Source: Solwaraspora sp. WMMD792 (GTDB lineage Bacteria > Actinomycetota > Actinomycetes > Mycobacteriales > Micromonosporaceae). From it: a DNA stretch of 64,000 nt. The notes beneath the pieces were generated by a model. That model saw nothing but the letters and a program-made list of their open reading frames with translations. It made no database searches and was not told the origin of the DNA. The stretch's first letter is position 1. Each line of letters opens with the position of its first letter. The stretch lies in contig NZ_JARUBH010000009.1 in NCBI RefSeq assembly GCF_029626105.1, positions 5,704,001 through 5,768,000 of the forward strand, written 5' to 3'. Shown one piece after another: positions 12,905 to 25,978 of this stretch. Both the position numbers and the translations under genes were made by a program.

Positions 12905-13675
12905 CTACATGAGTGACGGTCGGCTGAGGATGCCGTCGACGGCTTCGATCAGCTCGGCTGTGCTGCGTACGACGTGGACGCCCGGCTTGGTGGCGAGGGC
13001 TTGCGCCCATTTGCTTTGCATGGCGTGGCTGGTCAGGATCACCGGCCGGCCATGCCCGAGGGCAAGGCGAGCCTGGATCCGGGCGCCGCTGGTCTCGCCA
13101 GCTTCGACGACGAGGGTCGCTGCCGCGTACCCGCTCATCACCGCGTTGCGCATCGGGAAGCTCTGCCTGGTAGGGCCGGCGTCGGGCCAGAACTGGCTGA
13201 CCACCAGGCCGACTTCGGCGATATGGTCCTGCAGTCGCCGGTTGGCGGGCGGATAGTAGTTGCGGATGCCGGTGCCGATGACCGCGACGGTACGGCCACC
13301 AGCGTCAAGGGCTGCGGTGTGCGCAGCGGTGTCGATGCCGTGAGCCAGCCCGCTGGCGACCGTCACTTCCCGGTTGACCAGCGTCTCGGCTACCGATCGC
13401 GCGATGCCCAGTCCGCGCGCTGACGCCTTGCGGCTGCCGATGACGGCTACGGCCAGGTCGTCGACCCTCAGCTCGCCACGGGTGAACAGCAGCGGAGGAG
13501 CCTCCTTGATGCCGCGCAACTGGGCGGGGTAGCTGTCGTCGGAGAAGGCGTGTACCCCGATCCCGTCCGCCCGCCACCCGGCGATCTCGTCGGCAGCGGC
13601 GGCGACCAGTGCCGCACCAGAGCTGGTCGTGGCCGGAAACAGAGCCTCGGGTTGGCGCAGCGCCGGGTCGAGCAT
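12905..13675 (-). CDS. DprA/Smf-like DNA-processing protein
   Basis: 256 residues with the DprA Rossmann-like core: AVIGSRKASARGL, VASGLAHGIDTAAH, AVIGTGIRNYYPPANRRL, and SGYAAATLVVEAGETSGA. In transformation DprA loads RecA onto incoming ssDNA; stand-alone copies in accessory regions are often of unknown use. The N-terminal part is shortened and the C-terminal winged helix of most DprA proteins is missing. ATG 13673-13675 is favoured because GGGAGG lies 4 bases upstream (13680-13685); GTG 13687 is an alternative. It directly follows a decayed HTH gene on the same strand, and probably formed an operon with it. Confidence 0.85.
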   Translation of the reverse strand: MLDPALRQPEALFPATTSSGAALVAAAADEIAGWRADGIGVHAFSDDSYPAQLRGIKEAPPLLFTRGELRVDDLAVAVIGSRKASARGLGIARSVAETLVNREVTVASGLAHGIDTAAHTAALDAGGRTVAVIGTGIRNYYPPANRRLQDHIAEVGLVVSQFWPDAGPTRQSFPMRNAVMSGYAAATLVVEAGETSGARIQARLALGHGRPVILTSHAMQSKWAQALATKPGVHVVRSTAELIEAVDGILSRPSLM

Positions 13676-13687
13676 CGAACCTCCCAC

Positions 13688-14190: not shown

Positions 14191-14328
14191 GGGAACCTCC
14201 TCGTTTGCGGCGGGACTGCCGACCCTGACTAGCATCAGGGAAGTCGTTTGTTATATCAACCCCCTAGTCTGTTGTGACTTCCTGAAGTAGGCTCACCCTG
14301 CTATCCGGTCCTGTAAGGAGTGAGGAAC

Positions 14329-15225
14329 ATGACCCAGTCACCGACGGGCCAAGAGGCAACCGACGGCGCAGACGTCTCGCCCACCGTGCAGGCATGGGAA
14401 CTCGGCATCAGGCTGCGCCAGCGCCGTGAGGAGTTGGGCATGACAGCGGTTACTGCCGGCAAGGCGACCGGCATCGCCCAGGCATACATCTCGGGCGTCG
14501 AAGCCGGCCGGGTCAAACTGCCAGCCGGTCGACTGGCTCAACTTATCGAGATCTATGAGATCGATCCGGAAGACGCCGCCGAGCTGGAAGAGCTGCGGGT
14601 GGGAGCAACCCGTCGCGCCTGGTGGCACCAGTACTCTCAACTCTTCCCCGCTGACTTCCTCCGCTTCCTCGGTTACGAGGCCGGCGCGGATCACGTCCGC
14701 AGCTACGACAACGAGCTACTCCACGGGCTGCTCCAGACCGAGGACTACGCCCGTGCCGTGATCCGTGGCGGCAACACCTACGTCCGGCTGACCGAGATGA
14801 CCAGGCGAGTGAAGGCGCGCATGGCACGGCAGGCTCGGTTGACCGGTCTCAACCCCTTGAACGTGAGCACCGTCATCAGCGAGGCAGTCCTCCGTCAGCA
14901 GATCGGCGGTCCAGCGGTCATGCACGACCAGCTCAACCACCTGGCCGAGCTGGTGTCCTCGCATCCGGATCAGATCCGAATCAGGGTCGTGCCGTTCACC
15001 GCAGGAGCGCATCCAGCGCTCGGCGGGCCGTTCCAGATCCTCTCGTTCCCATCGCCCCGGCTGCCTGACCTGGTCTGGCAGGAAGTCCTGACCTCCAGCG
15101 ACATCATCGACCAGTCCGCTCGCGTAGCCGACTACACAATGACCTTCGCTGAGGCTGAGGAACGCGCGTTAAGCTCGCAGGACTCACTCGCGCTGATCCG
15201 CCAGATAGCCAAGGAGATGGGATGA
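14329..15225 (+). CDS. XRE-family HTH regulator with DUF5753 domain
   Basis: 298 residues. The N-terminal helix-turn-helix (LRQRREELGMTAVTAGKATG, ISGVEAGRVKLP, about residues 26-75) is followed by a DUF5753 domain (YDNELLHGLLQTEDYARAVI, NHLAELVSSHPDQIRIRVVPF). Such proteins pair with DUF397 proteins throughout actinomycetes and act as DNA-binding regulators whose signal is usually unknown. ATG 14329 is preceded by an AAGGAGTGAGG tract. The ATGA overlap with the DUF397 gene shows a two-gene operon. Confidence 0.92.
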   Translation: MTQSPTGQEATDGADVSPTVQAWELGIRLRQRREELGMTAVTAGKATGIAQAYISGVEAGRVKLPAGRLAQLIEIYEIDPEDAAELEELRVGATRRAWWHQYSQLFPADFLRFLGYEAGADHVRSYDNELLHGLLQTEDYARAVIRGGNTYVRLTEMTRRVKARMARQARLTGLNPLNVSTVISEAVLRQQIGGPAVMHDQLNHLAELVSSHPDQIRIRVVPFTAGAHPALGGPFQILSFPSPRLPDLVWQEVLTSSDIIDQSARVADYTMTFAEAEERALSSQDSLALIRQIAKEMG

Positions 15226-15428
15226 CCCCGCAGGTCGGCACCCCTGACCGAGACTGGTTCAAGTCGTCGCGCAGCTCCAACAACGCCGCCTGCATCGAGG
15301 TCCGCTTCGCTGGCGGCCAGGTGGACGTACGCGACACCAAGGACCGCACCGGCCCGACGCTCGCCTTCGGCCCCACCACCTGGGCTAGCTTCGTCACCGG
15401 CCTCAAGCACACCCCCACCCAGCCCTGA
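15222..15428 (+). CDS. DUF397 protein
   Basis: 68 residues with the DUF397 pattern: WFKSSRSSNNAACIEV, followed by DVRDTKDRTGPTLAFG and W-x-x-F-V near the end. DUF397 proteins partner the XRE/DUF5753 regulators, probably as anti-regulators. The ATG overlaps the stop of the regulator gene (ATGA at 15222-15225). Confidence 0.92.
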   Translation: MTPQVGTPDRDWFKSSRSSNNAACIEVRFAGGQVDVRDTKDRTGPTLAFGPTTWASFVTGLKHTPTQP

Positions 15429-15471: not shown

Positions 15472-15530
15472 ATCGGATGCGCTCCATCTGCTGCGCGCTC
15501 GGCGTGTCGAGCAGATGGAGCGCATCCGAT
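15472..15530. repeat. Perfect 21 bp inverted repeat
   Basis: Arms 15472-15492 (atcggatgcgctccatctgct) and 15510-15530 are exact reverse complements separated by 17 bases. It begins 43 bases after the DUF397 stop and ends 70 bases before the vapB-like start. No T-tract follows. It could terminate the XRE operon, be the operator of the toxin-antitoxin remnant, or be a leftover of a mobile element. Confidence 0.75.
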
Positions 15531-15599
15531 GCTCAACCGAGGCACACGCTCCGCACACGGCCTCGACGCACACTCGGTCTGCTCTCGCAGAGGTTGCCA

Positions 15600-15815
15600 A
15601 TGACCGTCACGCAGGTTGACCTGGACGACGAGGCACTAGCAGATGCCATGCGCCTCTCCGGATCCAGAAGCGAGCAGGAAACCGTCAACCTTGCGTTACG
15701 CGAGTACGCCGCTCACCATCGGCGTATCGCGGCCTTGTCGCTGCTGCCCAAGCCCAGACGACGGATATTCATCTTCCTGAGGCTTCACGCAATAAGACCT
15801 GACCTCAGCCGGTAA
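15600..15815 (+). CDS. Truncated orphan VapB-type antitoxin
   Basis: 71 residues. The first 45 (MTVTQVDLDDEALADAM, EQETVNLALREYAAHHRR) match the ribbon-helix DNA-binding part of VapB antitoxins closely. After LSLLPKPRRRIF the expected toxin-binding tail is replaced by unrelated sequence and an early stop, and no VapC PIN-domain gene follows; the next gene is convergent. ATG 15600 is preceded by AGAGG. The DNA-binding half could still bind an operator, but the module is no longer a working toxin-antitoxin pair. Confidence 0.6.
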   Translation: MTVTQVDLDDEALADAMRLSGSRSEQETVNLALREYAAHHRRIAALSLLPKPRRRIFIFLRLHAIRPDLSR

Positions 15816-15824
15816 TGACGGTGA

Positions 15825-18218
15825 TCAGGCCTGTTGGATCAGTCGGCGGAGGTTGGCTGCGCGGTCGTCCTCGAACTGGCTGAGCAGCGTCAACGCTTCC
15901 TGCCGTACCGGCAGCGCTTCTGCTTTGCTGCTGGTCGCAGCAAGGGCTGTCGCCAGGTTGTGCAGTGCGACGGCGGTTTGCCAGGAGTCGCCGAGCCGGC
16001 GGTGCACTCCGGCTGCCTGTCGGTGGAAGTCCACGGCTTCCGCCGGCCTGCCAAGATCCTGATACGCCTCGCCGGCACCGTCGATTGCGGTTGCTTCCCG
16101 GCTGCGGTCACCGATTCGTCGTTGCAGCGCAGCGGCACGATGCAGGATGTCGAGGGCGGCGGCGGGATCGCCGATGGCCCGCCGCACCCGGGCCAGTTCG
16201 ACCAGCCAATGGCCCAGCCACAGCGAGTTGTTCGCCTCCTCGGCAATCGCCACCGCAGTCTCGATGTGGGCCTGTGCACTGGCAACGTCGCCCGTCTCGC
16301 GCTCGGCCCTGCTGAGGAAGAACAACGCGTTGCCTTCCTGGCCTCGGTCGCCAAGGTCGCGTAGCTCAGCGAGGGCCTTCCGGAGCAGTTCGGCGGCCTC
16401 CGGCAACTGCAGCATCTCGTACCGTGTCTCACCCAGATTGCTCAGCGCAAGCGCCCGCCAGCGTCGGTTGCCGAGTCGGGTGACGATCTCCAGGGCTTCG
16501 GAGAAGTAGCGGACCGAGTCGGTCAGCCGGCGATGCCGCAGCCCCAGCAGGCCGAGCGCGTTGATCGAGACAGCGGTGCCGAACTCGTCACCGATCTCGC
16601 GGCGGATCGCCAGAGCGGCCTGGTGGCACTCTGCCGCCTCGTCGAGTTGGCGGGCCTGGAAGTGTGCCTTGCCGAGACTTTCCAGGGTTTCGGCTTCCCC
16701 GCGCCGGTCACCGACCGACCGGGCTGACGCCAGCCCGATCCGGGCGGTGGTCGACCACTCGTCGAAGGCGTTCTGATGCATGTAGACGCCGCGCAGCACC
16801 GCCGCCAGATGCCAGGCGACCTGGTGAGCGCCGCACTCGCTGGCGAGGCGGGTCGCCGCGACCAGGTTGTGCCGTTCGGTCTCGAACCATTCGGCCGCGG
16901 TCGTCGATGCGCTGAACACGATCGCCTCGACGTCTTCGGCCGGGTCCAGCGGCACCGTCTGGTTGAACGGAAGCATCGCCGTCACCGCAGCGTCGGCGCT
17001 GTGCAGGTACCACCGAAGCACACGCAGCTGCGCCGCTTGGCGTTCGTCGTCCGACTCGCGCTGGCGCACCTGATCGATGGCATACGCGCGGAGCAGGTCA
17101 TGTAGTTGGTACCGGTCCAGCCCGACGTGCTCCAGCAGGTGGGCGCCAACGAGTTGATCGAGCAGATGCCGGATCCGGCGCGCCGGGGTGCCGGACAGCA
17201 CGACCGCCGCCGCCGCGCTGAAATCCGGGCCGGGGTGCAGCCCCAGCAGCCGGAACAGCCTCGCGGCCTCGTCTGTCAACGCGCGGTACGACCAGGCGAA
17301 CACGGTCCGGACCGCGCCGGACTCGTCGCCGTCGTCGGCCGTTAGCGTGTCCCAGAGCGCCGATTCGTCGCGCAGGTCCTGGATTAGTTCGTGTAGGGCC
17401 ATGAATGGCCGGCTGGCAGCCCGTTCGCCAGCGATCCGCAGCGCAAGCGGTAGCCGCGCACACAGCCGGGCCAGCTCGACCAGCTCCTCCTCACTGTCCC
17501 CCTGGCGATAGCCGTCCATGACAGTCCGCAGCAGCTCGACGGCGTCGTGCTCCGGCAGGATGTCGAGCGTTAGGCGCTGGCCACCGTCCCTGGCCACCAA
17601 TGCGGAGAGCCGGCTCCGGCTGGTGACGATGACCGAGCAGGTGTCCGTTCCGGGCAACAGCGGCCGGACCTGACCAACCGACGCGGCGTTGTCCAGCACG
17701 ACGAGGATCCGCCGATCGGCGAGGCGAGACCGGTACATCGCCGCCCGTTCATCCAGGTCCGCTGGAATGGCGGGAGGTGGTACGCCAAGCGACCGGAGGA
17801 AGCGGTCAAGCGCCTCCGCTGGGTCGACCGGCGGTCCGGGGTCGTACCCGCGCAGGTTCACATAGAGCTGCCCGTCCGGGTAGCGCGCCTTGACCCGATG
17901 CGCCCAGCGAATCGCGAGCGATGTCTTGCCGACCCCGGCCGTGCCGGCGACGACGAGCAAGGTCACCGTAGGTGCGGTGTCGTGGGCATCGGTCAGCAGG
18001 CGGTCGAGCGCCGAAAGCTCACGGTTGCGGTTGAGGAAGCCGGCGACTCCACCAGGTAGTTGCCGTGGCGGCGGATCGGCGGGTGCCGGGTCGAGGCCAT
18101 GAAAATGTACGCCGCCGTGCACGTCACGGGCCTGCACCAAGTCCGCGCTGCCGGAAAGCTCGGTCCGGTTGACGTGTCGGGAATCCGGGTCGTCGGACGC
18201 CGCGCTGCCGTGAACCAT
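15825..18218 (-). CDS. STAND/NB-ARC NTPase with TPR repeats and N-terminal amyloid-like signalling motif (NLR-like)
   Basis: 797 residues. After a short N-terminal tail comes a glycine/glutamine motif at about residues 17-41 (N..., SG, LVQARDVHGGVHFHG). An NB-ARC NTPase follows: Walker A GTAGVGKTS (about 92-99), Walker B RRILVVLDN (about 168-176), sensor region VIVTSRSRL, GLPL-like ARLPLALRI, and a winged helix with LHDLLRAYA. TPR repeats fill about 470-790. This is the NLR layout: repeats sense, the NTPase oligomerises, the N-terminus signals. The same motif ends the divergent small protein at 19216-19608, so the two probably act together. It is the last gene of a three-gene operon, 3 bases after the DUF6879 gene. 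An AfsR/SARP regulator is excluded because there is no DNA-binding domain. Confidence 0.88.
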   Translation of the reverse strand: MVHGSAASDDPDSRHVNRTELSGSADLVQARDVHGGVHFHGLDPAPADPPPRQLPGGVAGFLNRNRELSALDRLLTDAHDTAPTVTLLVVAGTAGVGKTSLAIRWAHRVKARYPDGQLYVNLRGYDPGPPVDPAEALDRFLRSLGVPPPAIPADLDERAAMYRSRLADRRILVVLDNAASVGQVRPLLPGTDTCSVIVTSRSRLSALVARDGGQRLTLDILPEHDAVELLRTVMDGYRQGDSEEELVELARLCARLPLALRIAGERAASRPFMALHELIQDLRDESALWDTLTADDGDESGAVRTVFAWSYRALTDEAARLFRLLGLHPGPDFSAAAAVVLSGTPARRIRHLLDQLVGAHLLEHVGLDRYQLHDLLRAYAIDQVRQRESDDERQAAQLRVLRWYLHSADAAVTAMLPFNQTVPLDPAEDVEAIVFSASTTAAEWFETERHNLVAATRLASECGAHQVAWHLAAVLRGVYMHQNAFDEWSTTARIGLASARSVGDRRGEAETLESLGKAHFQARQLDEAAECHQAALAIRREIGDEFGTAVSINALGLLGLRHRRLTDSVRYFSEALEIVTRLGNRRWRALALSNLGETRYEMLQLPEAAELLRKALAELRDLGDRGQEGNALFFLSRAERETGDVASAQAHIETAVAIAEEANNSLWLGHWLVELARVRRAIGDPAAALDILHRAAALQRRIGDRSREATAIDGAGEAYQDLGRPAEAVDFHRQAAGVHRRLGDSWQTAVALHNLATALAATSSKAEALPVRQEALTLLSQFEDDRAANLRRLIQQA

Positions 18219-18221
18219 GTC

Positions 18222-18833
18222 TCATGTTCCCGTAGGCGGCTCCAGTGTGGCCACTTCCCGATCAAAGAACGTGTCCAGCGGCTCGCCTTGGTTGTAGAGC
18301 CCTTCGATGAGACCTTGGCACCGGGCAATCAGCTCAGGGTCGGTGAAGCGACGGGCGGCGGCGAGCACACCCGTGTCGTCGTAGACCGCCTCGTACATCA
18401 CGTCGAAACCGAGCGTGTAGATCTCCGGCAGCGGACCCCCGTTCTCGTACGGAGCGACCTGCTCCGGACCGACGACGTTGGTCAAGCCGCCGTACTCCTG
18501 ACGGAGCCGGAGCAGGTGCAGCTCCCATTGCAGGTACGGGATGATCGGCTTCTCGACGACCCGCACCCGCCGGTTGACGAAGCCCTGGCGCGCGATCCGA
18601 CCGTAGTAGTCGGCGAAGTCGTCGCGCTGCTCGTCGATCAGCCGAAGCGACTCATCCCACCGACCGTCGATGAAAGCCTCCCAACTCTTGTTGCCGGGCT
18701 CCTTGAAGAACTGCTGCCGCTCCAGCTTCCAGAAGCCGACCGACTCTATCCGCCAGAAGTGCTCGTAGAAGTCGGTCAGGTAGTCGTCGAGTGTCAGCAG
18801 CTCACCTGGGTCACCGCCGAGAATCTCATGCAT
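18222..18833 (-). CDS. DUF6879-family protein
   Basis: 203 residues, soluble, acidic, rich in aromatic residues (YLTDFYEHFWRIESVGFWKLERQQFF; the pattern FWRIE...ERQ..F is typical of DUF6879). No catalytic motif known. Proteins of this family are frequent in actinomycetes beside XRE/DUF397 regulators and small acidic proteins. Here it overlaps the upstream 90-residue gene by 8 bases and ends 3 bases before the NLR-like gene, so the three are co-translated. A regulatory or sensing role for the NLR is a guess from context. Confidence 0.75.
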   Translation of the reverse strand: MHEILGGDPGELLTLDDYLTDFYEHFWRIESVGFWKLERQQFFKEPGNKSWEAFIDGRWDESLRLIDEQRDDFADYYGRIARQGFVNRRVRVVEKPIIPYLQWELHLLRLRQEYGGLTNVVGPEQVAPYENGGPLPEIYTLGFDVMYEAVYDDTGVLAAARRFTDPELIARCQGLIEGLYNQGEPLDTFFDREVATLEPPTGT

Positions 18834-19098
18834 CAGGTATGTCCGCCCTTGCCGCGATCATCGTCGAACGAGGGATGATCACAAGGCGCTCACCTGGATC
18901 GATCGACACGCCTTCTGGGAGTTGCTGGTGGTAGGTCTCGGTCAGATCATGGCCGATCACTGCGATGTCGCCGTTGGATAGCTCCCAGATATCTGGGCAG
19001 CTCGTGTCGCCAGAGGTCGTCCCGAGCTCATGCGCGGACTTGCCCCAGCGCCTGATCAGGGTGGCTGTCGGATCGGCTTCCCACTTTGATCCACTCAT
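18826..19098 (-). CDS. Small soluble protein preceding DUF6879
   Basis: 90 residues from ATG 19096-19098. It has no membrane segment; motifs are WGKSAHELGTTSGDTSCPDIW, strand-like GDIAVIGHDLTE, and a C-terminal GERLVIIPRSTMIAAR. Small proteins of this style regularly precede DUF6879 genes in actinomycetes. It is the first gene of the operon that ends with the NLR-like protein and is divergent from the effector-like gene at 19216, so the 117-base gap between them must hold promoters for both sides. Confidence 0.65.
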   Translation of the reverse strand: MSGSKWEADPTATLIRRWGKSAHELGTTSGDTSCPDIWELSNGDIAVIGHDLTETYHQQLPEGVSIDPGERLVIIPRSTMIAARADIPDA

Positions 19099-19215
19099 GA
19101 TGACCTTCCAAGGCTCGCTTGCCGGTGTAACATAAGGTAACATCGAGAAATCTGGATCAAGCTCCTTTCGTGCCCGATGTCGCCAATAGGGATAATCCTC
19201 AGATTGGGAGTTCCG

Positions 19216-19608
19216 GTGACTGAACCGATCATGGTTACCGTCGTCTCCGCACTCGTCACCTGGGCGACGACCGCCGTCGCCCAGGGCGGCAGCAACGCCG
19301 TCAAGTCGTGGGCGCAGCTGATCCGCAATCGTTTCCAGTCGAGACCAGCCGACCTCGTAATCGTCGAAGGCACACTGTCTACGCAGGTCCAGCCCGCGCA
19401 GACGACCCAGGCCGTGGAGCTGCTGCGACAGGAGGCCAAACGGGACCCCGAGTTCGCTCGCCAACTGATCGCGCTCTGGCGGGCAGTGGGCACCTCCGGC
19501 TCCAGCGACGACTCCGTGACCAACCAGGTTTCCGGCGACGTCGAAGGCACCGTCATCCAGGCCCGCGACGTCTTCGGAGGAATCCAGATGCACGGCCGCA
19601 CCGACTGA
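19216..19608 (+). CDS. Small helical membrane-targeting effector with C-terminal amyloid-like motif (Bell-like candidate)
   Basis: 130 residues from GTG 19216, chosen for GGGAG 5 bases upstream (an ATG at 19177 would add 13 residues). Residues about 5-40 are a hydrophobic then amphipathic helix (IMVTVVSALVTWATTAVAQG, VKSWAQLIRNRF); about 60-90 are a second helical part ending DPEFARQLIALWRA. A flexible linker leads to the C-terminal motif N, SG, VIQARDVFGGIQMHG (about 103-127), matching the NLR-like protein's N-terminus. Small helical domains with such C-terminal motifs are the known layout of bacterial Bell/HeLo-like cell-death effectors paired with NLRs. The motif match is seen directly; the effector role is inferred. 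Confidence 0.72.
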   Translation: MTEPIMVTVVSALVTWATTAVAQGGSNAVKSWAQLIRNRFQSRPADLVIVEGTLSTQVQPAQTTQAVELLRQEAKRDPEFARQLIALWRAVGTSGSSDDSVTNQVSGDVEGTVIQARDVFGGIQMHGRTD

Positions 19609-19643: not shown

Positions 19644-21056
19644 CTACTTGCTGTACCGGCGGACGATGCGCAGAAAATTGCGAAGCTTACTCACCTCGCT
19701 TGGCTTTACCGGGTCCGGGTTGAAGTGCATCACGTTGTTACGCACCTTACGAAGCTCGTCGAGGCGCTTGATGAACAGTTTGCGATCCAACGGCCAACCC
19801 AGTTGTGCCCAGCAGCTTGGGTTGTCCAGGACCGCTTGATACTGACCGACGGACATGCTGTTCAAGGACCTGAAGGGCTGATTTGCGGCACTACAGGCAT
19901 CCCTGATCATGTCTTCATCGAAAGTGTTCTGCAACAGCTGGCGAAGCTCCTGGTCGATCTCGCCGATCAAGAAGAAGGGAGTCGCCGTCTCGTCATATTT
20001 GTGGACAACGTCTGCAGCCGTGATAATACCGGTAATCTTTCTTTCGAAATCACGGACAAAGATGAAGCCGTCTCGCCGTAGCGTGCCAATAACGTCAAGG
20101 AGGCGTGTGTCATAGTCAAAGACTCGGTCTTTTGCCCGCCGATCGATGGCGTCATTGAACGTCGCGTTCGGGTCCCGATGCTTCGCCGCAGCTACCGATT
20201 CCCAGGAAACGGCACCGTGCACGGTGTACGGGTTCGCCAACACCGCGACTTGCGAATAGTCGTTGATCTGCATGGCCGTGATTGCCTCCTCGAAGGTTGC
20301 CGAGGGAGAAACCGAGACCAGCGGGCTGTCGTCTTGCAGCAGGTTACCCAACGTCAGGCCGATGTCCGTACTGTCCTCGTCGTTCGTGTCGTCGGCTGAC
20401 TCGTCGCGCTCAGGGGCACGGTGGTCAGCTACCTTCACCGGCGCTTCATCGCTCTCATTCGGCGTCTCTAGCCGCAGGGTGAGATGCAGACCGACCGCTC
20501 GGAAATCGGGGACGGTAACCAGTCCATGGTTGGCGAGATCTGCATCGATCCGGGCGCTGGCCTCACGATCACGGTCCTCGACGCCCCATAGCCGGATGAA
20601 CTCACGGACGGTCAAGCTTTGCGGCTTCCCCGCCTCCGCCTTGGCACGAGCCTCTTCCAGATACTCGAAACGACGACGCGCGGCCTCTGCCTCCTCCGGA
20701 GGTGCCTGATGTTCGGATGCCACCTCCTCGGCAACCGCCTTGAGCAACTGCTGGCGTAGCTCGTGCAGCGAGGCTCCGGTTGGGCTCACTCTCCAAGCGG
20801 ACCAACCGGCCAGAGCACGAATGTCAGCAGCAGCAGCGCCAGCCGCTGAAGGCGTGGAGAACTCCCGACCGTCAGCCAGCCGGAGATTCCCACGGTCCGT
20901 TACGACGGATTCGTACGGCGGCTCACCGTAGCGAGGCGTGTAGTAGAGCTTCTGCCCAGGCTGCAGCAACTCGGCTTCCATGAGGTCGGATATGCGGACT
21001 CGTCGACCGTTGATCAGCAACTCGCGACGAATACGGGATGGACGCTTTGGTGACAT
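19644..21056 (-). CDS. RAMA-CBS-HEPN-like protein, probable defence factor
   Basis: 470 residues from ATG 21054-21056, with GGAG 5 bases upstream. Residues about 10-90 (ELLINGRRVRISDLMEAELL, GQKLYYTPRYGEPPY, AGWSAWRV) resemble a RAMA domain, found with restriction enzymes and adenine methylases. A charged helical linker follows. Residues about 270-395 hold two CBS-type repeats (VSPSATFEEAITAM..., TRLLDVIGTLRRDGFIFVRD, ITGIITAADVV), which bind adenosine nucleotides. The C-terminal helices end in a candidate HEPN RNase motif R-x4-H (VRNNVMHF, R439/H444). Nucleotide-gated RNase activity is the natural inference. A decayed restriction-type locus lies directly upstream. Confidence 0.7.
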   Translation of the reverse strand: MSPKRPSRIRRELLINGRRVRISDLMEAELLQPGQKLYYTPRYGEPPYESVVTDRGNLRLADGREFSTPSAAGAAAADIRALAGWSAWRVSPTGASLHELRQQLLKAVAEEVASEHQAPPEEAEAARRRFEYLEEARAKAEAGKPQSLTVREFIRLWGVEDRDREASARIDADLANHGLVTVPDFRAVGLHLTLRLETPNESDEAPVKVADHRAPERDESADDTNDEDSTDIGLTLGNLLQDDSPLVSVSPSATFEEAITAMQINDYSQVAVLANPYTVHGAVSWESVAAAKHRDPNATFNDAIDRRAKDRVFDYDTRLLDVIGTLRRDGFIFVRDFERKITGIITAADVVHKYDETATPFFLIGEIDQELRQLLQNTFDEDMIRDACSAANQPFRSLNSMSVGQYQAVLDNPSCWAQLGWPLDRKLFIKRLDELRKVRNNVMHFNPDPVKPSEVSKLRNFLRIVRRYSK

Positions 21057-21069
21057 CTCAACTCCAGAA

Positions 21070-21452
21070 TCAGAATAGGGCGTCGGGGCGGGGGAACACG
21101 GCGTCGTCGAAGGCAGGGAGTAGCGGCTCCGGCTCCTGTGGCCCTCGGGGTCGCGGGACCGACTTGGTTGACCTGCGTGGTGTGTCAAGGATCTCGACCC
21201 GCACCGCCGGGTCGATGGTGTAGCGGGCGCCCTGCCGGGTCTCGTGGAAGCCGTGGTTGAGCCGCAGGTCGGACCAGCCGTACGCCTCGGCAATCGCCTC
21301 GTCGATCTCGACGTGGATCTCCCGCAACCGCCAGTGTCCGCGCTGGTTTCGGCGCTGGCGACTGCACTGCGGATCACCTGCGCCGCCACCCACCTGCGGT
21401 TTCGTACCGTCACCAGTTGGCCTTCGGTCGGCACCGCCGGCTGGTCCGTCAC
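21070..21452 (-). pseudogene. Fused remnants of a DISARM-like helicase and a restriction-type methylase
   Basis: GTG 21450-21452 opens a frame reading VPTEGQLVTVRNRRWVAAQV, which looks like the very N-terminus of DISARM-type (DrmD-like) SNF2 helicases. About 30 codons later this stops making sense, and a different frame reads REIHVEIDEAIAEAYGW, LNHGFHETRQGARYTIDPAV..., ending in TGA at 21070. That pattern is the C-terminus of large adenine-specific methylases of DISARM/type IIG systems. A large deletion joining both, with loss of frame, explains the region. The family assignment is from memory of motifs and needs a search. Confidence 0.45.
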
Positions 21453-21655
21453 GGTTTGGTAGCCGACTCGGGGCGCTGACCATCGTCGATAGTTTGGTGC
21501 GAAGTGTCCGAACGGCCCATTCCATACGTACGTGCCTCCACTCTGCACCTTTCGTCGTTTCCTGAGCCCGGAGCCGCTGCGTAACATGGGCTCTCCGCGA
21601 ACGCAGGCGTGCAGGTTAGTGGAATCTCCCAAGACAGTCGACAGGGGATCTGACA

Positions 21656-23776
21656 GTGGCCAAGCTCGGTATCGCCAAAGACTTCCTTGCCGACTACGCC
21701 AAGCTGCAGAAACCGGTCCAGAAATCGGTTTCCGCCGTGATCGACAAGTTCGCGGCACATACTCACGCCGGCATTCACCTGGAGAAACTCGCCAACGCCA
21801 AGGACTCCCGCATCCGCACCATCCGGATCACCCAGTTCTATCGGGGCGTCGTACTCGCCCCGACCAGCGGCGACGAGTTCCTGCTGCTCACCGTCCTGCC
21901 CCACGACGACGCCATCGAGTACGCCAGCAGCCGCCGGTTCACCGTCAACCAGGCCCTCGGCGTCCTCGAGGTCCGCAACCAGCAGGCGCTCGACAGCATC
22001 GAGCCGGCCCTGCAGCAAGCCGCCAGGGCCAACCCGAGCATGCTGTTCGCCAGCGTCAACGACGCCGACCTGATCCGACTCGGCATCGATGCCGACGTGC
22101 TGCCCCTGGTCCGGCTGCTCACCACCGACGCGCACCTGGAAGCCCTGGCGAACCTGCTGCCCGCCGCCCAGTACGACGCCCTCACCGGCCTCGCCGCCGG
22201 GTACACCCCGGAGCAGGTGTGGGCCGAGGTCAGCGCGCACCTGCCGACCAGCACCCCCGCCGAGCCGGTCGACCCGGACGACCTGACCGCCGCCGCCGCC
22301 CGCACCCCGGACCGGTTCCACCTGGTCTCCGGCCCCGACGAACTGGCCAGCATCCTCGCCCACCCGTTCGACGCCTGGCGGGTCTTCCTGCACCCGGCGC
22401 AACGCGAGATCGCCCATCGCCCGTCGTACGCCGGACCGGCGCTGGTCACCGGCGGCGCCGGCACCGGCAAGACGGTGACCGCGCTGCACCGGGCGGTGTT
22501 CCTCGCCGAACGGATGGCCGGCGGCGCGGGCCGGTTGCTGCTGACCACCTTCACCCGCAACCTCGCCGACGCGCTCGACCGGCAACTCGGCCTGCTCACC
22601 GACGACCCTGCGGTCCGCGACCAGATCGACGTGCTCAACGTCGACCGGCTCGCCTACCGGATAGTCGCCGAAGCCCTCGGCCGCCAGCCGGTCATCGCCG
22701 ACGCCAAAACCGTCACCCGGCCGCTGCGGGAGCAGGCGGCCGCCGCCACCGGCGGACAGCACAGCGCCACCTTCCTGCAGCGGGAATGGGAACAGGTGAT
22801 CCTGGCCCAGGGCATCACCGAACCGGCCGGCTACCTGGCCGCCCGCCGACACGGTCGGGGCGCGCCGCTGCGCGCCGACCAGCGGCTCGCCGTCTGGGAA
22901 GCGATCCGGCAGGTCACCGACGTACTGCGACAACAGGAGCAGCACACCCACCTGCAGTTGGCCGACCAGGCGGCGAAGATCCTCGCCGAACGGCCGGACC
23001 GCCCGTACCGGCACGTCATCGTCGACGAAGGCCAGGACCTGCACCCGGCGCAGTGGCGACTGCTGCGGGCCGCCGTCGCCGCCGGCCCCGACGACCTGTT
23101 CATCGTCGCCGACCCGCACCAGCGCATCTACGACAACCACGTCTCACTGGGCAGCCTCGGCGTCGGGATCCGGGGACGCAGCCGCAAACTGACCATCAAC
23201 TACCGCACCACCCAGGAGATCCTCGCCTGGTCAGTGCGGCTGCTCACCGGCGTACAGCCGACCGGGCTGGACGACCAGCCGGACAACCTGGCCGGCTACC
23301 GGTCCCCGATGCACGGCCGCCGGCCTCGGGTGGCCGGTCACCCGGACCGCGACGCCGAGCACGACCAGCTCGTCAGCCAGGTACGCAGCTGGATCGGCGA
23401 CGGAGTCGAGCCGCACGCGATCGCCGTCGCCGCACGCAACGGCCACCTCGCCCGCGCCGCCCGCGACCGGCTCGGCACCGCCGGCATCCCGGTCAGCACC
23501 CCCACCGCGACCAAGACCAACGCGGTACGGGTCGGCACCATGCACGCAATGAAAGGGCTCGAATTCAGCTGCATCGCGGCGATCGGCGTCGACGCGGACA
23601 CCATGCCGGCCCGCTCGACGATCACCGCCGCTGACGACGACCCCACTGCGCACCGGCACGACCTGCAGCGGGAACGGTGCCTGCTCTTCGTCGCCTGCAC
23701 CCGCGCCCGGGACTCGCTCTACGTCTCCTACGCCGGTGCCCCCAGCCCGTTCCTCGACGCCCAGCCCACCCACTGA
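21656..23776 (+). CDS. UvrD/Rep-like SF1 helicase with N-terminal RelE-like domain
   Basis: 706 residues from GTG 21656. Residues about 1-95 (KDFLADYAKLQKPVQKSVSAV, RIRTIRITQFYRGVVLAP, LTVLPHDDAIEYASSRRF) have the size and strand pattern of RelE/ParE-like mRNA interferases. After a helical linker the helicase core has Walker A GGAGTGKT (about 266-273), motif Ia TTFTRNLADAL, Walker B VIVDEGQDLHPAQW (about 455), motif III IVADPHQRIY, motif IV NYRTTQEIL, motif V GTMHAMKGLEF and motif VI ACTRARDSLYVS. All SF1A motifs are present, so it should be an active 3'-5' helicase. A GmrSD-like gene follows after 30 bases, which suggests a two-gene defence module (inference). Confidence 0.9.
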   Translation: MAKLGIAKDFLADYAKLQKPVQKSVSAVIDKFAAHTHAGIHLEKLANAKDSRIRTIRITQFYRGVVLAPTSGDEFLLLTVLPHDDAIEYASSRRFTVNQALGVLEVRNQQALDSIEPALQQAARANPSMLFASVNDADLIRLGIDADVLPLVRLLTTDAHLEALANLLPAAQYDALTGLAAGYTPEQVWAEVSAHLPTSTPAEPVDPDDLTAAAARTPDRFHLVSGPDELASILAHPFDAWRVFLHPAQREIAHRPSYAGPALVTGGAGTGKTVTALHRAVFLAERMAGGAGRLLLTTFTRNLADALDRQLGLLTDDPAVRDQIDVLNVDRLAYRIVAEALGRQPVIADAKTVTRPLREQAAAATGGQHSATFLQREWEQVILAQGITEPAGYLAARRHGRGAPLRADQRLAVWEAIRQVTDVLRQQEQHTHLQLADQAAKILAERPDRPYRHVIVDEGQDLHPAQWRLLRAAVAAGPDDLFIVADPHQRIYDNHVSLGSLGVGIRGRSRKLTINYRTTQEILAWSVRLLTGVQPTGLDDQPDNLAGYRSPMHGRRPRVAGHPDRDAEHDQLVSQVRSWIGDGVEPHAIAVAARNGHLARAARDRLGTAGIPVSTPTATKTNAVRVGTMHAMKGLEFSCIAAIGVDADTMPARSTITAADDDPTAHRHDLQRERCLLFVACTRARDSLYVSYAGAPSPFLDAQPTH

Positions 23777-23806: not shown

Positions 23807-25978
23807 ATGCAGGCACACACCCTCACCCCGACCGCGATCTTCGGCAATCAGGTCCGGCACGTCGTGCCGCTGTTCCAGCGGCCGTACGTGTGGAACGAGC
23901 AGGACCAGTGGGCTCCACTGTGGGAAGACGTCGCCCGGGTGGCGGAGGACGTGCTGACCGCACCGACCAGCTACGGTGCCCCGCCGGTCGCCCCGCACTT
24001 TCTCGGCGCGATCGTGCTCGATCAGCCCGCCGGCCCACCCGGCTTCCTCACGATGCGCCAGGTCATCGACGGTCAGCAGCGGCTGACCACCCTGCAGCTC
24101 ATGCTCAACGCCGCACAGCGGGTCGCCGAGCAGCACGGCAGTACCCTGCACGCTCAGGCGCTGCAGGTCCTGGTCCGCAACCAGCCCGCGATCCTGCAGG
24201 ACCCGTCGGAGGCGTACAAGGTCTGGCCGACCGACCGCGACCAGGACGCCTTCCGGGCCGCCATGGACGGCGACGGCACGCTCGGCGCGGAGCTGGCCGG
24301 CTCCGCGCTGGTGCGTGGCCACGACTTCTTCGTCACCGCCATCGCCGAGTGGGCCGACGTCACCGGTGATCCGGACAAGGCCACCACCCGACTGCAGGCG
24401 CTGACCCAGGCGCTGCGCGACCATTTGAAGCTCGTGGTGATCCAGCTGGAGCCGGGCGACAACGCGCAGGTGATCTTCGAGAGCCTCAACAGCCGGGGCA
24501 TGCCGCTGCTCGCCGCCGACCTGATCAAGAACCTGGTCTTCCAGATCGCGCAGCTGCGGCAACTCGACGTGGCTGGCCTGTACCGCAAGCACTGGGAGCA
24601 GTTGGACACCGACCACTGGCGGCTGCGCGTCGCCCGTGGCCGGCAGTACGTGCCCCGGATCGACATCTTCCTCCACCACTGGCTGATCACCCGGACCCTC
24701 AGGGAGGTGCCGGCAGACCGTCTCTACCTGTCCTTCAAGGAGCACCTACCGGCGCCGGAGCAGCTCGACCTGCCGGCGCTGCTCGCCGACCTGTCCCGCG
24801 ACGCCGCCAGCTATGCGGCCCTGGACAAGTGGCCGGCCGACTCGGCTGTCGGTAGGTTCCGCTACCGGGTGCTGCAGGCGATGGACTCGGCGGTGGTCAC
24901 CCCGGTCCTGCTGTGGCTGCTGCGCTGGACCGACCAGGAGCTGCCCACCGTCCAGCGGGACAAGGCCCTCGCCGCGCTGGAAAGCTGGCTGGTGCGCCGG
25001 GCGCTGTGCCGGCTCACCAGCAAGGACATCAACCGGCTGACTCTCGACCTGCTGCGCAAGCTCGACGAGACCGGCCCGGCGACCGCTGGCGACGTCACCG
25101 AGACCTTCCTTGCCGGACAGCGGGCCGACTCCCGGTTCTGGCCCTCCGACGATCAGGTACGCGATGCGCTCACCACCGCGCCGGTCTACCGGACGCTGCT
25201 GCGGGCCCGGCTACGAATGGTTTTGGAAGCAGTCGAGGAGCACCGGCGTACCCCCAAGGCCGAGCAGCCGCACTGCCCACGCAATCTCACCATCGAGCAC
25301 CTGCTGCCGCAGGGGTGGCGGACGTACTGGACCGCCGGGCTCACCGAGGAGTTGGCCGCTGAGCGGGACAAGCTGCTGCACACCATCGGCAACCTGACCC
25401 TGGTCAACAACAAGCTGAACCCGTCCCTGTCCAACCGGCCATGGACCGACGAGCAGGCCCAGTCGGTCGGTGCCGCCGACACCGGCAAGCTGACCGAGCT
25501 CCAGAAACACACCACGTTGAAGATCAACGCGGATATCGTGCTGACCGCACCGCACAGCTGGGAGGTCGAGCAGATCCGCCAGCGGACCGCCGAGTTCATT
25601 GAGCGGATCATCCAGATCTGGCCGGCACCGGCCGTCAGCGCCGCCGTCGCGGCCCTGGCCACGGCAGAGAAGGAGAAGGTGCCAGCCGAGGGAGTCAACG
25701 AGACCGAGGAGGAGTCGGCTCCCGGCCAGTCCATCGCGCTGACGGGCAAGTACCGGCCGCTGACCGACTGGCTTCTGGAGCAGGACGCGGAATCGCTGCC
25801 GGTCACCTTCGACGAGCTGGAAACCGTCATCGGGGGTCCACTGGCACCGTCGGCCCGCACCGGCTCGGGGTACTGGTACTCGCAGTCCAACTCGCTGAGC
25901 AAGGCGATCGCGGCCGGTGGCTACCAGGCGACGCGCGCCCAAATCGTCGACGAAACCGTTGTCCTGGTCCGCCGGTAG
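23807..25978 (+). CDS. GmrSD-type DUF262/DUF1524 nuclease with extra C-terminal DUF7662-like domain
   Basis: 723 residues. The N-terminal DUF262 domain contains the ParB-like NTPase motif DGQQRLTTL (about residue 88) and the substrate region FESLNSRGMPLLAADLIKN. The C-terminal DUF1524 domain has the HNH-type residues in TIEHLLPQGW (about 494) and IGNLTLVNNKLNPSLSN. GmrSD enzymes are type IV restriction systems that cut glucosylated or otherwise modified phage DNA. After a Glu/Ala-rich linker an additional domain (about 645-723: GKYRPLTDWLLEQ..., FDELETVIGGPLAPSAR, YWYSQSN) resembles DUF7662, not part of classical GmrSD. It is read with the upstream helicase gene. Both signature motifs are intact. 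Confidence 0.9.
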   Translation: MQAHTLTPTAIFGNQVRHVVPLFQRPYVWNEQDQWAPLWEDVARVAEDVLTAPTSYGAPPVAPHFLGAIVLDQPAGPPGFLTMRQVIDGQQRLTTLQLMLNAAQRVAEQHGSTLHAQALQVLVRNQPAILQDPSEAYKVWPTDRDQDAFRAAMDGDGTLGAELAGSALVRGHDFFVTAIAEWADVTGDPDKATTRLQALTQALRDHLKLVVIQLEPGDNAQVIFESLNSRGMPLLAADLIKNLVFQIAQLRQLDVAGLYRKHWEQLDTDHWRLRVARGRQYVPRIDIFLHHWLITRTLREVPADRLYLSFKEHLPAPEQLDLPALLADLSRDAASYAALDKWPADSAVGRFRYRVLQAMDSAVVTPVLLWLLRWTDQELPTVQRDKALAALESWLVRRALCRLTSKDINRLTLDLLRKLDETGPATAGDVTETFLAGQRADSRFWPSDDQVRDALTTAPVYRTLLRARLRMVLEAVEEHRRTPKAEQPHCPRNLTIEHLLPQGWRTYWTAGLTEELAAERDKLLHTIGNLTLVNNKLNPSLSNRPWTDEQAQSVGAADTGKLTELQKHTTLKINADIVLTAPHSWEVEQIRQRTAEFIERIIQIWPAPAVSAAVAALATAEKEKVPAEGVNETEEESAPGQSIALTGKYRPLTDWLLEQDAESLPVTFDELETVIGGPLAPSARTGSGYWYSQSNSLSKAIAAGGYQATRAQIVDETVVLVRR

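Follow-up and report, generated by a model that had tools for sequence, protein, structure and literature searches.

The logic by which an NLR fires an effector through a shared amyloid motif has reportedly been known since 2020, in work said to be that of Dyrka et al. (2020). Here we examine a locus that resembles such systems in a stretch of 64,000 nucleotides of the genome of Solwaraspora sp. WMMD792 (the window, i.e., the whole stretch of DNA analysed), in which an NLR-like STAND receptor (a bacterial relative of human immune receptors) and a small effector carry the same short motif at opposite termini and flank two further small genes, one encoding a protein of 90 residues (p90) and the other a DUF6879 protein. 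The four genes probably constitute an amyloid-type NLR signalling system. Its NLR-effector logic is already known, and the conserved p90-DUF6879 pair is, on sequence grounds, an added element that may gate the system or sense for it.

The closest described systems are the NLR-Bell gene pairs of bacterial amyloid signalling (BASS; PMC7889193, PMC8086366, PMC9815663). The window locus resembles those pairs in its actinomycete host, in an NB-ARC/TPR receptor whose N-terminus bears a short motif, and in a neighbouring gene that carries the same motif C-terminal to a small helical domain. It departs from them in its motif core, which reads VQARD-HGG, unlike the one printed for BASS3, and in two extra conserved operon genes, p90 and DUF6879. 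Systems of the window type further differ from BASS pairs in the use of proteins with two transmembrane segments (two-TM proteins) as alternative motif carriers and in an effector that, among the loci examined, is often not adjacent outside Micromonosporaceae and Nocardia. A fungal parallel is the PP motif of PNT1/HELLP, likewise a short motif that joins an NLR to a helical death effector; this motif and the RHIM of the mammalian necrosome share with the window a Gln-centred motif of hydrophobic and Gly residues. The amyloid-signalling layout claimed in the preliminary description is upheld by the same motif at the NLR N-terminus and the effector C-terminus, by a predicted helical effector domain and by recurrent linkage. 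The features of the locus are listed below, the four genes having been correctly called and placed in that description:

15825..18218, minus strand: NLR-like STAND receptor of 797 residues, with NB-ARC at residues 86-288 and TPR repeats at about 509-743
18096..18170, minus strand: receptor-side motif, NLR residues 17-41, NRTELSGSADLVQARDVHGGVHFHG
18222..18833, minus strand: DUF6879 protein of 203 residues, with a predicted PLD-like fold that lacks the HKD catalytic motif
18826..19098, minus strand: p90, an open reading frame for a protein of 90 residues
19099..19215, no strand: intergenic region of 117 bp between the divergent p90 operon and effector gene, from the gene coordinates
19216..19608, plus strand: small effector of 130 residues, with a GTG start
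19222..19500, plus strand: helical (Bell-like) effector domain, residues 3-95, first helix hydrophobic, from structure prediction
19522..19596, plus strand: effector-side motif, residues 103-127, NQVSGDVEGTVIQARDVFGGIQMHG, in an unstructured tail

The receptor is recognized by Pfam matches at 1.1e-7 for NB-ARC and 9.6e-39 for TPR_12. Its gene starts 3 bp after the DUF6879 stop, the DUF6879 and p90 genes overlap by 8 bp, and these two genes separate the effector gene from the NLR, so that the two motif carriers are not directly side by side. Promoters for the effector gene and for the p90 operon presumably both lie in the 117-bp intergenic region. Started from the ATG at 19177, the effector would have 143 residues; the alignments of its relatives begin at the GTG.

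The shared motif reported earlier at NLR residues 17-41 and effector residues 103-127 is borne out. The BLOSUM62 local alignment of NLR residues 1-60 with the last 40 residues of the effector scored 64, a value that shuffling the effector tail 20,000 times never produced (maximum 55), and the next-best scores among the 664 open reading frames (ORFs) of the window were 51 from the NLR side and 43 from the effector side, in agreement with the claim that no other window gene has it. When the NLR peptide was compared with the whole genome of its own organism (7.4 Mb) at E<=10, it matched only the NLR itself and, weakly (E 0.15), the effector tail, in a search whose first stage is insensitive for short peptides. 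An alignment of 17 motif rows, which contains both window motifs, returned the same two places only at E<=1 (2.0e-12 and 2.0e-11; 150 of 183 candidates were scored). At the sensitivity used, the motif pair is unique in the genome. As far as sequence comparison can tell, the strongest support for the shared motif is its recurrence in other genomes, more than the window statistics.

This recurrence was followed through p90. An alignment of four p90 proteins scanned against 84,980 species genomes revealed 193 relatives. From these the 80 best loci were returned, every one of which was examined; as the best 80 of 193, they over-represent nearer relatives. The N-terminal motif was present in 55 of the 57 NLRs that adjoin p90-DUF6879 in this set. 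A hold-out model built from 18 sequences, those of the window and of loci L024-L044 only, again matched 55 of the 57 when run on the 16,030 ORFs of the 80 loci (two of which repeat training contigs), and its 31 other matches comprised short ORFs carrying the motif close to their C-terminal end plus two additional NLRs. Hosts of the p90 loci with an NLR include Micromonospora, Actinoplanes, Plantactinospora, Streptomyces, Kitasatospora and Actinomadura, together with Saccharopolyspora, Nocardia, Nocardiopsis, Microbispora and Crossiella. Across 52 aligned NLR N-termini, conservation of the columns of the motif core VVQARDVHGGVHFH was mostly at least 90% (a few at 40-80%) and that of the flanks mostly 10-40%; the motif is a conserved island in an otherwise variable NLR N-terminus. 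On the effector side, a short ORF with the C-terminal motif was found in 25 of the 80 p90 loci and was Bell-like in 24 of these. In Micromonosporaceae the effector is divergent and lies upstream; in three Nocardia loci (L099, L102, L111) it lies downstream in the same orientation.

The preliminary description had also read the N-terminal half of the effector as hydrophobic or amphipathic helix, which agrees with the predicted structure: five helices, with a hydrophobic N-terminal helix and a helical bundle, followed by the unstructured tail that bears the motif. The best 19-residue Kyte-Doolittle mean of the first helix is 1.70, starting at residue 4. The effector domain matched the N-domain of four Micromonosporaceae proteins with a BASS3-type motif weakly (hhalign probability 71, E 3.6e-5). 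Protein searches placed effector relatives in 20 of 101 genomes, and the surroundings of these matches define 21 wide loci (L024-L044). All four genes are present in nine of them (L024, L027, L028, L030, L031, L032, L034, L035 and L044); the remainder have an NLR without p90/DUF6879 or no NLR. One locus without an NLR (L026) belongs to a genome (G007) in which, 2.4 Mb away (L159), p90, DUF6879 and an NLR stand together with no effector. The effector N-domain is common to the effector loci of this set and the tail motif varies.

Unlinked effectors were sought with the motif alignment in 25 genomes whose p90-DUF6879-NLR locus had no adjacent Bell effector. All 25 matched, as expected from their own NLR, and 26 places were listed in open frames of <330 residues. 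The 20 places inspected comprised 10 Bell-like proteins, three two-TM proteins, one TIR protein with the motif in its C-terminal part, four other proteins with an N-terminal motif, one NLR fragment and one unclassified case, the Bell-like, two-TM and TIR candidates coming from 13 of the 25 genomes. Some of these carriers adjoin other NLRs (e.g., L231). Among the p90 loci, small proteins with the motif at their C-terminal end and two TM segments by reading occur at L055 9086-9541, L057 9096-9575, L104 692-1063, L107 8547-8960 and L173 6882-7214; others are at L220, L224 and L228, two membrane segments having been computed for these last three. Judged by their sequences, two-TM motif proteins are a possible second effector class. 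Four proteins from two Crossiella genomes (L225, L236, L229, L233) carry an N-terminal motif ahead of either membrane segments or a domain that looks helical; the domain examined (L225) had no Pfam match.

The preliminary description held two small genes to be locked into the NLR operon, and the comparison supports it. Besides the 8-bp overlap, DUF6879 adjoins p90 in 79 of the 80 returned loci (the exception is L066), the NLR comes next in 57, and 55 of these NLRs have the motif. A search for the NLR in 41 genomes gave matches at E<=1e-80 in 28, from which 30 loci were returned (the best per genome and two more): nine combine the motif with p90 and DUF6879, and in the other 21 none of the five models matched. 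DUF6879, searched in 31 genomes, was matched in 17, with 25 full-length copies (at least 130 model positions and E<1e-20; L024, L027, L031, L032 and the window included). Nine of these copies adjoin an NLR, all nine with p90, which accompanies 19 of the 25 overall. Distance matrices were correlated between DUF6879 and NLR (r 0.81) and between p90 and NLR (0.65; 52 loci each), and between NLR and effector (0.90; 23 loci), with 0 of 2,000 permutations as high. By this sampling of sequences, the p90-DUF6879 module is broader than the NLR system, and the motif-bearing NLR is seldom without the module in the loci examined.

The window DUF6879 (PF21806) scored 119.3 bits, against a Pfam gathering cut-off of 23.9, and was confidently predicted as a phospholipase-D-like (PLD-like) fold. 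The HKD catalytic pattern (HxKxxxxD) occurs in three of 107 DUF6879 sequences, at one N-terminal place in all three, and the window protein is not among them. Speculatively, the modelled fold could be a catalytically dead PLD of binding type. Such pseudo-PLD domains are known from the sensor domain of TrmB and from FAM83/DUF1669, with which identities are about 6-12% and sequence homology is not evident. No paper in the library searched names DUF6879, although an earlier mention of it or of p90 in Dyrka et al. 2020 is possible. Searches of Pfam, NCBIfam and PADLOC gave no family for p90 at E<=1, and profile comparison detected no relationship to DUF397 (hhalign probability 0.2-0.3). The module exists in strongly diverged versions: between the window type and the L031 type, p90 is matched by phmmer at E 6.8e-9, the p90 profiles cross-match, and the DUF6879 proteins are 13-17% identical.

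The assignment of the motif to BASS3/RHIM that was originally offered is not supported. The core of the Frankia BASS3 peptide is printed as VQVGDGN-Q-N (PMC8086366) and the fungal PP pattern as NxGxQxGxN (PMC9815663), whereas the window motif has VQARD-HGGV, its two copies reading VQARD and IQARD. Among 56 NLR motifs, the window included, 50 have Q-A-R, one Q-T-R and five Q-A-G; because of these 50, the RHIM/PP-like Q-x-G core is mostly missing, and the Q-A-R of the window does not conform to the Q-x-G of PP. By its core, the motif does not qualify as BASS3/RHIM. It is more likely that the motif belongs to a BASS family other than BASS3, BASS1 being a guess.

Several observations weigh against the amyloid-type system and its linkage. 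At the cut-off used, 32 of the 57 NLR loci lack a motif-bearing short effector ORF, the pair often not being adjacent; weaker candidates in L107 and L110 fall below it. One NLR with both motif and effector (L029) has no p90/DUF6879 within 18 kb, and in L044, which has all four genes, the motif of the NLR can be read by eye as SVQAQTINGPVHIG but has diverged and scores under the cut-off of the model (E 0.33). The hydrophobicity of most effector N-helices is only moderate (Kyte-Doolittle maxima of about 0.5-1.7), and comparison of the effector with PDB folds gave no match of weight to any structure, leaving the Bell fold neither established nor excluded. An NLR is absent beside 16 of the 25 full-length DUF6879 copies in the 31 genomes, and p90-DUF6879 lacks one in 22 of the 80 p90 loci, two of which stop right behind DUF6879. 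Finally, correlated distances also follow from shared ancestry.

The motif, its conservation, its position and the four-gene linkage are read from sequence, and the helical effector and PLD-like DUF6879 are predictions; together they would fit the following mechanism. The NB-ARC/TPR receptor would be kept off until its TPR end, probably with DUF6879-p90, meets a trigger. The receptor might then oligomerise and gather its N-terminal motifs into an amyloid seed, which could template the matching motif in the effector tail. The helical domain of the effector, released or clustered, would damage the membrane, and the infected hyphal compartment would be killed or arrested, in what we infer to be an immune role. 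Oligomerisation, templating and membrane-acting release are here proposed by analogy with fungal and bacterial precedents (in what PMC7889193, PMC7885112 and PMC9815663 describe of them). The most speculative step would make DUF6879-p90 the gate or sensor of the receptor, in the manner of the binding-type PLD fold in TrmB or FAM83. Possibly, though at less than even chances, the locus represents an undescribed amyloid NLR class with a core of p90 and dead PLD-like DUF6879 that gates or feeds the receptor; the pair would then be a general actinobacterial sensor cartridge, plugged into HTH-DUF5753, DUF6082 and formyltransferase-like settings, and the motif would fire interchangeable effectors (Bell, two-TM, TIR), adjacent or distant.

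It is rather unlikely, by comparison, that p90-DUF6879 is an independent regulatory or toxin-antitoxin-like module, merely co-inherited and co-transcribed with an ordinary two-component NLR-Bell amyloid system. Precedents would be the XRE(HTH)-DUF397 pairs (WhiJ/BldB, Scr1/Scr2), proposed toxin-antitoxin systems (PMC7159879, PMC10294661, PMC6262351, PMC10364602), which occur attached to VMAP ternary systems (Kaur et al. 2020, PMC7159879) and in WhiJ-BldB-AbaA sets (PMC10294661). Like them, p90-DUF6879 is an actinobacterial small-protein module near HTH-type regulators that can attach to conflict systems, but p90 and DUF397 are not alike by profile, and here the module is paired with an NLR that bears an amyloid motif. 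Independence would account for the 22 of 80 p90 loci that have DUF6879 and no NLR, and for neighbours of the pair elsewhere, which include HTH-DUF5753 regulators, DUF6082 membrane proteins and formyltransferase-like proteins (identified mostly by reading or gene length, one of each being confirmed by Pfam). Pairs lie beside DUF6082-like membrane proteins in L092, L095, L100, L106, L108 and L175, and beside formyltransferase-like proteins in L112, L116, L119, L122 and L089. It would also suit two close relatives (L171, L172) from which the NLR stretch is absent (window 15734 to 18231 in L171, to 18220 in L172): similarity resumes over DUF6879, which is open in both, and stops 66 or 82 bp into p90, most of which lacks a counterpart, and no effector or p90 was called in either. 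These variants indicate piecewise gain or loss of the locus, with DUF6879 able to remain by itself. Both share the window flank, and L171 has an Imm1-family protein nearby. Independence is at odds with the tight coupling (all or none in 9 and 21 of the 30 NLR loci; the motif in 55 of 57 NLRs), which recurs in at least two strongly diverged versions, the window and L031 types (DUF6879 13-17% identical), and with window genes that overlap or abut while effectors lie on either side.

It is quite improbable that the NLR acts as an AfsR/SARP-like STAND regulator of transcription or development whose motif serves ordinary, non-amyloid oligomerisation or binding. Its best NCBIfam matches are indeed AfsR (376 of 1430 bits) and HaaT (360 of 1125), both far below cut-off, and HTH-DUF5753/DUF397 genes adjoin; yet Pfam shows no DNA-binding domain in the NLR, and the presence of the motif on small helical, two-TM and TIR proteins that are unlike in other respects fits effector recruitment. 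That a motif so short and Gly-rich, with a whole-genome E of only 0.15 for its partner in the single-peptide search, is shared by chance or low complexity can be dismissed, given that no shuffle in 20,000 reached the score and that the motif recurs at these two termini across many genera, with the hold-out model as well.

The window neighbourhood of the putative four-gene system includes a DprA-like protein (12905-13687, minus strand; PADLOC ShosA 2e-62), a RAMA plus CBS protein (19644-21758, minus), a GajB-like UvrD helicase (21656-23776, plus) and a GmrSD-type restriction enzyme (23807-25978, plus). As gene content goes, it looks like a defence island, which fits immunity and proves nothing. 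An HTH-DUF5753 plus DUF397 pair (14320-15428, plus) and a VapB-family antitoxin (15477-15815, plus) are also present.

According to PMC7889193, what amyloid NLR signalling leads to in bacteria has yet to be explored, and PMC7885112 describes most activating ligands of the corresponding fungal systems as unknown. The p90-DUF6879 pair, which tracks the motif-bearing receptor in most loci examined, offers a concrete candidate, open to testing, for the upstream step that is missing; DUF6879 gains a predicted fold and a genomic context. Two-TM motif carriers would add a type of output that the consulted portions of the cited BASS descriptions do not mention. Overall, the locus suggests a cell-death switch of known type that may not yet have been described in full.

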